A stretch of 20,677 bases of DNA from a virus: positions 1-20,677 of the IMG/VR virus record IMGVR_UViG_3300032331_003279, one strand, 5' to 3'. This document shows, piece by piece, positions 3,532 to 12,219 of the stretch (position 1 is the first letter of the stretch; each line of letters begins with the position of its first letter). The notes beneath the pieces are model-generated. The model was not told where the DNA came from, did not search any database, and saw only the letters and a list, made by a program, of their open reading frames with translations. The translations under genes and the position numbers were made by a program.

Positions 3532-3957
3532 ATGGCAACAATCAACTTTCAGCGTCTAGTTCAGGAAGGTCGGGCAGCAGCTACGGCTTGGAATGAGTGC
3601 GACAATGCTCTGACAGCCTGTAACGAAGCTTTTGGTGCTCCGTTTGAGATCACTAAGGACAAGCTACAGACTGACATTACCGTGGCTGGCGCACACAACT
3701 TTGATTTGTCTGTGTTCAGCGGCAAGGATTCTGCCTTTAAGTTTCCTGAAGTTGAAACGAACATTATTGTTCGGATTACTCGCATACCCACGGCGCACAA
3801 CAAGATCGATAAGATTGACGAAAAGATCTTTAAGCTTGAGCAGCAACTTAAAGTTGCCAAGATTGAACGCAAGAAGCTTGTCGAACAACTAGCAATAACC
3901 GGTGACGTAGATATGGTTACCGATAAAATCTCCCTTGCTTTCACCCGTTTAAAATGA
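3532..3957 (+). CDS. Coiled-coil protein, 141 aa, unknown
   Basis: The 141-residue product has a mixed N-terminal region and a clear C-terminal coiled coil around residues 88-122 (KIDKIDEKIFKLEQQLKVAK and the following Lys/Glu-rich stretch). The start follows the tRNA-like fold and a small hairpin. The stop overlaps the next ATG as ATGA at 3954-3957. A long opposite-strand open frame over this region is a shadow. Function unknown. Confidence 0.75.
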   Translation: MATINFQRLVQEGRAAATAWNECDNALTACNEAFGAPFEITKDKLQTDITVAGAHNFDLSVFSGKDSAFKFPEVETNIIVRITRIPTAHNKIDKIDEKIFKLEQQLKVAKIERKKLVEQLAITGDVDMVTDKISLAFTRLK

Positions 3958-10062: not shown

Positions 10063-10247
10063 CTAAAATGACACCAAAATTTCAGCCAATTTTTGATGAC
10101 TGTTTAGATAGAGGTATTCGTCGTGGATACGCTCGTGCCCACAAACATGTAGAAAATCCTGGGGAAGAAATCATCTTTGACAACATTCAAGAATGCATAA
10201 TGTCAGAACTGTACGAGTACTTTAACTTTAAGGAGTCAAATGACTAA
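10059..10247 (+). CDS. Small protein, 62 aa, unknown
   Basis: ATG overlaps the dCTP-deaminase-like stop as ATGA. A second in-frame ATG three codons later (MTPKFQ) is possible. The product reads as short helices with an HKHVENPGEE middle part and an acidic C-terminus. It contains a strong AAGGAG ribosome site for the next gene within its own 3' end. Function unknown. Confidence 0.6.
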   Translation: MTKMTPKFQPIFDDCLDRGIRRGYARAHKHVENPGEEIIFDNIQECIMSELYEYFNFKESND

Positions 10248-10386
10248 CCAACACTTAATCATCCCGCCACCTGAAATGGTAGAAAAGTGGGTCCGTATGC
10301 TTGAGGCGCGAAGTTTGGCGGGCGCGCAGGCGGTGCTGGCTGCCGCAGTATCAACCCATTCCCGACGAACAAGGCTGAGTCGTTAA
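10240..10386 (+). CDS. Very small protein, 48 aa, with strong ribosome site
   Basis: AAGGAG at 10230-10235 sits at ideal spacing before the ATG at 10240, one of the clearest Shine-Dalgarno sites in the window. The ORF overlaps the previous gene by 8 bases and ends with TAA at 10384-10386. The 48-residue product begins MTNQHLIIPPPEMVEKWVRM and ends with a basic tail (SRRTRLSR). Its second half is GC-rich. Function unknown. Confidence 0.6.
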   Translation: MTNQHLIIPPPEMVEKWVRMLEARSLAGAQAVLAAAVSTHSRRTRLSR

Positions 10387-10415
10387 CCCTGCCTGTTATT
10401 TTTTCTTCTTAAACC

Positions 10416-10733
10416 ATGGAAATCGCTGCCTCTCAAATTCAAATCAATGGCGTTGAGTATGTTCGCGCTGATCATGTTCCTGCACCTGCCCCAAGTGGTA
10501 ACCGCGCTCTTGTGGTTGTTGATCGTGGTTGGATTTTTGCTGGAGATGTAACCAGAAAAGACGGTCGCATTCGATTGAGCCGTGCATTGCATGTGTTCAA
10601 GTGGGAATCTATCGGCTTTGCTAAGATGGTCGAAACTGCAAAAGCAGATCTGCGACCTATCGCAGACGTGGATATACCTGAAGGTGCCGAGATCTTTTGC
10701 GTACCAGTGTCCAAAGACTGGGGGCTGAAGTGA
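10416..10733 (+). CDS. Phage protein with VEYVRAD / GNRALVVVDRGWIFAGD region, 105 aa
   Basis: The N-terminal half (INGVEYVRAD, then SGNRALVVVDRGWIFAGDVT) resembles a domain common in phage proteins that I associate with DUF6948, though I cannot confirm the number. A truncated relative is encoded at 11081-11215. The C-terminal half (KDGRIRLSRALHVFKWESIG) continues the same fold. The stop and the next start overlap as TGATG. The T-rich leader resembles the leader before 11081. Molecular role unknown. Confidence 0.7.
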   Translation: MEIAASQIQINGVEYVRADHVPAPAPSGNRALVVVDRGWIFAGDVTRKDGRIRLSRALHVFKWESIGFAKMVETAKADLRPIADVDIPEGAEIFCVPVSKDWGLK

Positions 10734-11002
10734 TGGACGGGTTAATGCGCCCTATTGGCTATGGCTCTGGCTCTGGCTATGGCTATGGCTATGGCTCTGG
10801 CTATGGCTCTGGCTATGGCTATGGCGATGGCGATGGCTATGGCGATGGCGATGGCTATGGCTATGGCAATGGCTCTGGCTATGGCAATGGCTCTGGCTAT
10901 GGCGATGGCGATGGCTATGGCGATGGCTATGGCTATGGCAATGGCTCTGGCAATGGCTCTGGCTATGGCACCTGTTCACCACATAGGAACAGGCGCCCTT
11001 AA
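10733..11002 (+). CDS. Gly-X dipeptide repeat protein, 89 aa
   Basis: ATG at 10733 overlaps the previous stop as TGATG. After MDGLMRPI the product is 35 consecutive Gly-X pairs, X being Tyr (16), Ser (8), Asp (7) or Asn (4), then GT and a short basic tail with one Cys. The DNA is a hexanucleotide array. The chosen frame is supported by the start-stop overlap and by the polar X residues, but the other two plus-strand frames are also open through the array. Gly/Tyr-rich chains are typically disordered and can be adhesive or phase-separating; that is inference. Confidence 0.6.
   Translation: MDGLMRPIGYGSGSGYGYGYGSGYGSGYGYGDGDGYGDGDGYGYGNGSGYGNGSGYGDGDGYGDGYGYGNGSGNGSGYGTCSPHRNRRP
10757..10969 (+). 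repeat. Degenerate hexanucleotide tandem repeat (GGC NNT)n
   Basis: About 35.5 units of GGCTAT, GGCTCT, GGCGAT or GGCAAT. Variation is confined to bases 4 and 5 of each unit; GGC and the final T never change. The most common unit is GGCTAT. GNGS pairs (GGCAATGGCTCT) recur four times, and GDGD three times, suggesting expansion of 12-base and larger blocks by slippage or unequal crossover. Confidence 0.9.
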
Positions 11003-11049
11003 ATTAATAAACTCTGGGCAACCACGTATCAATGTGGTGTAAGTCCCAG
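10971..11049 (+). other. Paired hairpins with possible pseudoknot
   Basis: Immediately after the hexamer array, CCTGTTC pairs with GAACAGG around a loop containing ACCACAT. Downstream, CTGGG pairs with CCCAG, enclosing ACCAC/GTGGT around GTATCAAT. The loop of the first hairpin can pair with ATGTGGT of the second, so a pseudoknot or switch is possible. It lies between the repeat gene and the gene at 11081. Confidence 0.4.
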
Positions 11050-11080
11050 GATCAACCCTTAATCTTTTTCAAACTATCAA

Positions 11081-11215
11081 ATGTCTAACATTGTTACACT
11101 CAACAACGTTGAATACATCCGCGCCGATTCCATTTCCCAAGCTAAACCTAATGGTAATCGTGCCGTTGTAGTTACTGAACTTTTTGCCTTTACTGACGAA
11201 CTGGAGGCACAATGA
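11081..11215 (+). CDS. Truncated paralogue of the gene at 10416, 44 aa
   Basis: The first 31 residues (VEYIRADSIS, then NGNRAVVVTE) match the N-terminus of the 105-aa protein at 10416 (VEYVRADHVP, SGNRALVVVD). The similarity stops abruptly and is replaced by FTDELEAQ. This tail and its DNA (GACGAACTGGAGG) match the junction before the gene at 11559. It looks like a recombination product that fused the 5' half of one gene to a portable stop/start junction. GGAGG in the tail is the ribosome site for the next gene, whose ATG overlaps the stop as ATGA. Protein function is doubtful. Confidence 0.55.
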   Translation: MSNIVTLNNVEYIRADSISQAKPNGNRAVVVTELFAFTDELEAQ

Positions 11216-11439
11216 CTGAACTTTCCCCCGCCGCTCAGGCGGTGTGTAAAGCGTATTACAGCACCAACGATGATCTAGCTGGTCCAGCTCTTGCCGCCGC
11301 CCTGCGGGCTGTTGCGGATCAGGTGGTACCGGAGGAGCCCCTGTATGGGGGCGATCAACGATGGGAATGGGAGCGTGATGCTCGCCAAGCGTCCCGCAAA
11401 AAGATCCTCGCCATCGCCGACGAACTAAAGGCAGTATGA
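11212..11439 (+). CDS. LSPAAQ-family small protein, copy 1, 75 aa
   Basis: Begins MTELSPAAQAV and ends ILAIADELKAV. The protein at 11559 begins MTKLSPAAQSV and ends SIANELKAL plus three residues, so they are paralogues sharing both ends and a variable middle. I associate this pattern with small proteins in picocyanobacterial phages, without proof. GGAGG lies just upstream and the ATG overlaps the previous stop. Its C-terminal coding sequence is the first copy of the 41-bp tandem repeat. Function unknown. Confidence 0.7.
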   Translation: MTELSPAAQAVCKAYYSTNDDLAGPALAAALRAVADQVVPEEPLYGGDQRWEWERDARQASRKKILAIADELKAV

Positions 11440-11480
11440 AGGAACAACTCGCCATCGCCGACGAACTAAAGGCAGTATGA
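11436..11480 (+). CDS. ATGA-linked mini-ORF 1, 14 aa
   Basis: ATG at 11436 overlaps the stop of the 75-aa gene. It encodes MKEQLAIADELKAV and stops at 11478-11480, overlapping the next ATG. The last nine residues copy the C-terminus of the preceding 75-aa protein. AAAGG lies at ribosome-site spacing upstream. It may be translated by termination-reinitiation; the peptide itself may have no function. Confidence 0.4.
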   Translation: MKEQLAIADELKAV

Positions 11481-11521
11481 AGGAACAACTCGCCATCGAC
11501 GACGAACTAAAGGCAGTATGA
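11477..11521 (+). CDS. ATGA-linked mini-ORF 2, 14 aa
   Basis: Encodes MKEQLAIDDELKAV, differing from mini-ORF 1 by one residue (A to D). Start and stop both overlap their neighbours by four bases, and AAAGG precedes the start. It is the middle link of the three-ORF chain. Confidence 0.4.
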   Translation: MKEQLAIDDELKAV

Positions 11522-11562
11522 AGGAACAACTCGCCATCGCCGACGAACTGGAGGGACAATGA
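11518..11562 (+). CDS. ATGA-linked mini-ORF 3, 14 aa
   Basis: Encodes MKEQLAIADELEGQ. Its 3' end switches from the tandem-repeat sequence to the CTGGAGGGACAATGA junction that also occurs, with one base changed, before 11212. The GGAGG and the overlapping ATG at 11559 hand translation to the next full-length gene. Confidence 0.4.
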   Translation: MKEQLAIADELEGQ

Positions 11563-11783
11563 CTAAACTTTCCCCCGCCGCTCAATCAGTACTAGATGCT
11601 GCTATGCAACATTCAGGTCCAGCGTTTGAACCAGTGGCTTGCAAAATGGTTGCCTCCGCCATCCACGCTATTGCTAGTGAGAATTGTTACGAAGCCTACG
11701 GTGATGGATGGTTTGAGTTAGTTGTAGATGTTGCAGATCTTTATTCCATCGCCAACGAACTGAAGGCATTGTCCAATGACTGA
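11559..11783 (+). CDS. LSPAAQ-family small protein, copy 2, 74 aa
   Basis: Begins MTKLSPAAQSV and ends SIANELKALSND; paralogue of the 75-aa protein at 11212 with a divergent middle (Trp/Tyr/Asp-rich, residues 45-62). GGAGGGACA lies just before the ATG, and the start overlaps mini-ORF 3. The stop overlaps the zinc-ribbon gene as ATGA, again in an AATGACTGAACTT context like the start at 11212. Function unknown. Confidence 0.7.
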   Translation: MTKLSPAAQSVLDAAMQHSGPAFEPVACKMVASAIHAIASENCYEAYGDGWFELVVDVADLYSIANELKALSND

Positions 11784-12219
11784 ACTTAAAATTGACGAAG
11801 ATTTACGCCCTTTAAGACATAAAATACGTTTTCAAGCAGGTTATAAATCTCCGTTAAAAACGTGTAGCGAATGTGGCTGCAATACGTTAAGAGTCTTAGA
11901 GTCACTGCCTTACGCCACTTTTATTAAGAGACGTAAGCAGTGCGTATCGTGCGGACATCGCATCTCCACGCATGAAATACTTGTTAGTGAAGGTGGCGAA
12001 GCTTTGAACTATGCTCCTAAACATTTTAAAAATAGAGAAAAACCTGTTACTGCACCAAAAGAACCCAAAAAACCAGTAAAATCCAGAGTACCTTTATGTG
12101 TCAGAGATGGTTGTGTCCACTGGGATGGTTCATGCACAATGGGGTTCAGTGCAGACGAGCTAGACGGTAAGAACTGTGCTTGCTTTGTTGCCGAAAATGC
12201 TCCTGACTTTATTCTGTAA
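11776..12219 (+). CDS. NrdR-like zinc-ribbon protein, 147 aa
   Basis: Residues 30-67 (C30-x2-C33, then RVLESLPYATFIKRRKQ, C56-x2-C59, HRISTHE) closely resemble the zinc ribbon of NrdR, the repressor of ribonucleotide reductase genes. The NrdR ATP-cone is absent. A Lys/Pro-rich linker (about 86-106) leads to a second Cys cluster (C108, C113, C120, C134, C136) that may bind another metal. By analogy it may bind DNA or RNA; the dCTP-deaminase-like gene nearby is suggestive of nucleotide-related control but not proof. The start overlaps the preceding stop as ATGA. Confidence 0.65.
   Translation: MTELKIDEDLRPLRHKIRFQAGYKSPLKTCSECGCNTLRVLESLPYATFIKRRKQCVSCGHRISTHEILVSEGGEALNYAPKHFKNREKPVTAPKEPKKPVKSRVPLCVRDGCVHWDGSCTMGFSADELDGKNCACFVAENAPDFIL

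Follow-up and report, generated by a model that had tools for sequence, protein, structure and literature searches.

Adjacent genes can be tied together in translation by termination and reinitiation, and phage genomes can be assembled as mosaics through boundary sequences; both phenomena are already known. In the first, ATGA overlaps couple the translation of neighboring genes, and Cyanobacteria make use of a Shine-Dalgarno (SD) sequence for reinitiation (Huber et al., PMC6728339). In E. coli the final 15 nt of an upstream gene are enough for coupling, and gaps of about 20 nt nearly abolish it (PMC10666635). In the second, boundary sequences have been proposed as the builders of phage mosaics, although they are seldom visible (PMC3029335). 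Here we describe a phage locus with features of both.

Like the coupled overlapping gene pairs (Huber et al., PMC6728339; PMC10666635), the locus combines 4-nt ATGA overlaps with an SD sequence in the 3' end of the upstream gene, a short 3' stretch sufficing. Unlike the pairs of Huber et al., the predicted coupling signal is here a shared, exchangeable gene end within an array of paralogues that includes tandem 14-codon genes. As in boundary-sequence mosaicism (PMC3029335), conserved DNA is found at the module borders, and modules are common to otherwise unrelated phages. In contrast to that system, borders are also intragenic, at a central anchor, and the border at the gene end also supplies the next gene with its ribosome site and stop-start overlap. 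Also close is the small-gene region of Synechococcus phage S-SRM01 (MW015081, 57.8-60.2 kb), where members of the same family belong to series of short genes overlapping by 4 and 8 nt; unlike in our locus, no mini-ORF repeat was seen in that region and its genes are annotated only as hypothetical.

The window, by which we mean the whole stretch of DNA analyzed, is a linear IMG/VR record of 20,677 nt, and the genes, repeat, anchor and ribosome sites given here for 11081-12219 lie on its + strand. TRF delimits a 41-bp tandem repeat at 11407-11549 (period 41, 3.5 copies, 98% matches), which includes the tail of an upstream 75-aa gene. Between 11436 and 11562, three 41-nt units form ATGA-chained ORFs of 14 codons: mini-ORF 1 (11436-11480, MKEQLAIADELKAV), mini-ORF 2 (11477-11521, MKEQLAIDDELKAV) and mini-ORF 3 (11518-11562, MKEQLAIADELEGQ), each closed by a stop codon. 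An initial annotation of this DNA had explained the period as 45 minus 4, each ORF overlapping its neighbors by 4 nt, and had placed the array between genes of 75 aa and 74 aa; we confirm both ORFs, at 11212-11439 and 11559-11783. In each mini-ORF an ATG with three further codons is joined directly to the family tail; these ORFs are the smallest members of a family of small phage genes. The mini-ORF peptide is, as had been noticed, a copy of the C-terminus of the upstream protein (AIADELKAV matches). The proposed ATGA chain holds as well, but not its extent of five ORFs and four junctions. A 44-aa ORF (11081-11215) contributes a fifth ATGA junction, with the 75-aa gene, and the 74-aa gene is joined through an 8-nt overlap, ATGACTGA, to a 147-aa gene encoding an NrdR-like zinc ribbon (11776-12219). 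In all, seven ORFs between 11081 and 12219 are linked via five 4-nt ATGA junctions and one 8-nt junction. The N-terminus of the 44-aa ORF resembles the 105-aa gene at 10416 (VEYxRAD) and is fused to a family tail (TDELEAQ).

A ribosome site had been assigned to every junction. AAAGG or GGAGG is indeed present, but the mini-ORF sites are much weaker than those of full genes. The GGAGG of the 75-aa gene (11203-11207, in the tail of the 44-aa ORF) and that of the 74-aa gene (11550-11554, in the tail of mini-ORF 3) yield duplexes of -9.3 and -9.8 kcal/mol, respectively, versus about -2.6 kcal/mol for the SD-like AAAGG 5' of the mini-ORFs (11427-11431, repeated at +41 and +82). The chain displays two features of genes coupled by termination-reinitiation, a stop-start overlap and an SD within the upstream 3' end, the latter weaker at the mini-ORFs, and coupling of this type is likely at these ATGA and SD junctions. 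RNA folding of the repeat array revealed no obvious switch. Further upstream, positions 10756-10969 hold an array of about 36 hexamers (TGGCTA type), one frame of which reads as a Gly-Tyr/Ser/Asp-rich protein; ATGA-joined GYG proteins resembling this product are encoded at 2813-3156 of contig L085.

The 75-aa and 74-aa proteins are paralogues that share the pattern MTxLSPAAQAV ... AAALRAAADQV ... LLAIAxELE. One scan confirmed 108 relatives and another returned 251 in viral contigs; many uncultivated phages carry members, as do two cultured Synechococcus phages, S-SRM01 and S-CBWM1. Neither PHROGs nor Pfam contains a match to the family, and a fold search against PDB gave nothing below E 0.001. 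A predicted model of a family protein shows three helices (pLDDT 84), for which the only good fold matches were an uncultured phage protein and one from S-SRM01, with a weaker match in S-CBWM1. By profile search, S-SRM01 has four members and S-CBWM1 one; three of the S-SRM01 members map to 57.8-60.2 kb, surrounded by short genes that for the most part overlap. Against cultured phages, neither blastn with the region nor tblastn with the 75-aa protein produced a match, and the family consensus gave spurious matches only. In GTDB genomes, matches were confined to two contigs of a single Microbacteriaceae MAG (L206, L207), where the family genes may sit in binned phage contigs. Since the cultured phages matched by fold and profile both infect Synechococcus, we infer that the host of the window is likely cyanobacterial. 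Between the window's polymerase and that of the nearest cultured phages, which infect Pseudanabaena, identity is only 28%. psbA/psbD (PF00124) is missing from all 31 family contigs examined and is therefore uninformative on the host. The same arrays contain further unnamed families (PPPELVQQW...RKALE; ERALAGDATAAKQFLYEAGF...) with a similar style of overlap, several of them with CTGGAGG-like ends, at L085 3153-4352, L086 1-2300, L167 1300-1570 and L168 200-410.

Family genes carry three conserved DNA anchors, at the start, the center and the tail, that bracket two variable modules, VR1 and VR2. In the 75-aa gene the order is start anchor, VR1, central anchor (11290-11334), VR2 and tail, and it is at the central anchor that the partner phages of its sequence matches switch: one set of phages matches the 5' half, up to 11321-11334, and another set the 3' half, from about 11290 to the tail at about 11426-11436. 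The 74-aa gene has its 5' part in common with L083, L167 and L168, and its 3' part with L165 and L169. When 163 non-redundant genes were compared, 174 pairs had stretches of 60 nt or more in common at an identity of 85% or higher. The central anchor, which accounts for 20% of gene length, contained 151 of the 169 internal match edges; this edge count alone overstates the precision, because alignments naturally extend through a conserved anchor. As sequence evidence for mosaicism, the combinatorial sharing of modules is stronger than the BLAST edges: among 30 shared VR1 modules, 25 are combined with at least two different VR2 modules, and among 23 shared VR2 modules, 20 are combined with at least two different VR1 modules. 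The anchors hold position-specific codons (for example, alanines spelled GCC GCC GCC and then GCT GCT GCG), a pattern that points to descent at the DNA level.

Entire cassettes differ between close relatives, too. L085, with a polymerase 97% identical to that of the window, has a 147-aa gene where the window has its small-gene island, and the island is located further on. In L084, with a polymerase 99% identical, another paralogue replaces the 74-aa gene, and no array is present within the portion of the region that the contig covers. Phages this similar in polymerase differ in their cassettes and in the place of the island, so cassettes turn over faster than the phage backbone. As to the coordinates of the displaced island, window 10066-11795 compares with L085 1750-1777 and 2445 onward; the 147-aa gene of L085 comes immediately after the segment matching window 10066, whose end is only a short way beyond the dCTP deaminase gene.

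How does a shared gene end serve so many different neighbors? In most family genes the tail (E-L-E) doubles as the ribosome site for the next gene. Tails overlap the downstream start in 132 of 191 non-redundant cases, mostly by 4 or 8 nt, through ATGA or a ATGACTGA-like sequence. Coupled genes spell the tail with CTG (83/111) and GAG (91/111), whereas uncoupled genes do so in only 11/49 cases for either codon and mostly use CTT and GAA instead, often with TAGTC next, which leaves the peptide identical and removes the Shine-Dalgarno sequence. The difference between the two states is pronounced (Fisher 8e-10 for CTG and 8e-13 for GAG; 1.3e-6 with one vote per VR2 module), these p-values being indicative because the sequences are related. 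Ten VR2 modules are found in both states, and most of them switch their tail along with the state. Genes at array ends (L003-L008, L012, L245, L275 and others) often have GAGCTTGAAGCCCAGTAGTC in common across unrelated modules, as if the terminal tail were itself an exchangeable module.

The mini-ORF is not confined to the window: besides the three copies there, one is present in L083 and other forms occur at three further sites; the three-copy tandem expansion is seen in the window only. In L083, a 78-kb phage contig, a single unit follows a different family gene and precedes a gene of the window's 74-aa type, in a shared block with 98.4% identity over 185 nt. Copy number, which the initial annotation had singled out for comparison across phages, therefore does differ (three versus one), the downstream gene in this block being 98% identical. 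The window's polymerase is missing from the L083 and L167 contigs, which may be incomplete. L167 has one 14-codon unit preceding an unrelated gene, and L085 one 17-codon unit with an 8-nt overlap, likewise before an unrelated gene. Single units at other sites retain both overlaps; a length other than 41 nt does exist, a 46-nt form, but it keeps an 8-nt overlap rather than breaking the chain. At an array end on the same contig as L085, locus L182 has two units 41 nt apart, the first with a nonsense codon (AAG AAA TAA) and the second terminating in TAG with no coupled gene after it. Leader peptides keep a constant place before one regulated gene and an intact, conserved reading frame; the units instead precede varied genes or close an array, and the frame is broken in the first L182 unit. 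Apparent mini-ORFs in L178, L179, L180 and L183 belong to longer family genes, where they are internal Met codons or enclosed frames, and are not junction units; L184 was an unrelated match. In L083, the last gene of the array has an inverted repeat, CCTCTTCT...AGAAGAGG, after it (3688-3735).

Differences in the copy number of short repeats between relatives are characteristic of tandem-repeat contingency loci, the basis of phase variation. The three copies in the window versus one in L083 are reminiscent of such loci, in which a change of one unit switches a reading frame or promoter spacing. Here, by contrast, one unit more or less adds or removes a whole mini-cistron, and no frame is altered: 41 nt, as 45 minus 4, preserves all junctions and ORFs.

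What, then, is the repeat? We consider it probable that a near-empty gene cassette has been multiplied in tandem here, among small phage genes that recombine and form an array with coupled translation. Modules and whole cassettes would be swapped by homologous recombination at the anchors, driven by the phage or the host. The mini-ORF would have been created once, by a rare deletion, and then spread, and slippage or unequal crossing-over between identical tails would alter its copy number in 41-bp steps. With a whole cassette (3n-4) as the unit, each copy retains the start-stop overlap, and ribosomes should be able to reach the 74-aa gene at any number. A repeat length of this kind had been called unusual, yet it requires no special selection, since duplication of any whole ATGA-linked cassette always yields 3n-4. 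In light of the literature on ATGA/SD coupling, ribosomes probably travel through the units to the 74-aa gene, a fraction being lost at each step; the 14-aa peptides themselves are likely by-products. That the three copies are nearly identical could be due to drift in the recent past or, as an extreme case, to weak positive selection for the spacer.

The initial annotation had proposed that the array might adjust downstream expression through reinitiation, its copy number setting the level. On this model the repeat would be a dedicated tuning device, a selected regulatory spacer in which the mini-ORFs act as weak-site termination-reinitiation steps and copy number sets the share of ribosomes that reaches the 74-aa gene. 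ATGA and SD at every step, the same type of downstream gene preceded by three copies or by one, and the weak AAAGG of the mini-ORFs next to the GGAGG of full genes would all suit such a function. We nonetheless regard it as unlikely: the 74-aa gene owns a strong GGAGG, the unit is also found before unrelated genes (L167, L085) and at an array end without a coupled gene (L182), one L182 unit bears a nonsense codon, and the closest relative, L084, has a different paralogue at this place and lacks the array in the part that it covers. Tuning of the downstream gene by copy number is possible but unsupported. Equally doubtful is a broader proposal, that these are promoter-free phage cassettes whose tail is both recombination border and coupler, so that any cassette that lands is automatically translated, with near-empty ones as spacers whose number grades expression.

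Could the 14-aa peptide itself be functional, its tandem copies increasing the dose? The frame is open in every unit except one, and the sequence is similar in four contigs, but the peptide is no more than the C-terminus of the last predicted helix, and changes of A to D and E to K as well as a nonsense mutation are tolerated; this we hold to be very unlikely. Marginally less credible still is a non-coding repeat that slips neutrally, its ATGA chain a coincidence. A length of 3n-4 fits one in three repeat lengths, and dinucleotide shuffling of the window gave ATGA chains of at least three short ORFs in 5 of 200 cases, so that chain length alone is modest evidence. However, each unit is an identifiable gene start joined to the family tail, and single units elsewhere retain both overlaps, including in the 46-nt form with its 8-nt overlap; the repeat, its homology with the family tail and the return of the unit in other phages are not products of chance. 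Least credible of all is an assembly artefact in a contig that probably derives from a short-read metagenome (IMG/VR record), as point changes distinguish the three units and a single unit was assembled independently in L083.

In a limited literature search we found no description of a system in which a single exchangeable gene end unites translational coupling with a mosaic border, borders also lie inside genes and nearly empty cassettes stand in tandem, and no precedent for tandem repeats with ATGA reinitiation. In this family of phage genes the boundaries are plain; they occur inside genes as well as between them, and they fall together with the ribosome site and the stop-start overlap. The coincidence of border and ribosome site suggests that an exchanged gene could be expressed at once, without a promoter of its own. 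The synonymous switch between coupled and array-end tails amounts to an experiment set up by nature on whether coupled translation is selected for, and that coupling could be measured with the ready-made copy-number series that the 41-bp units provide.
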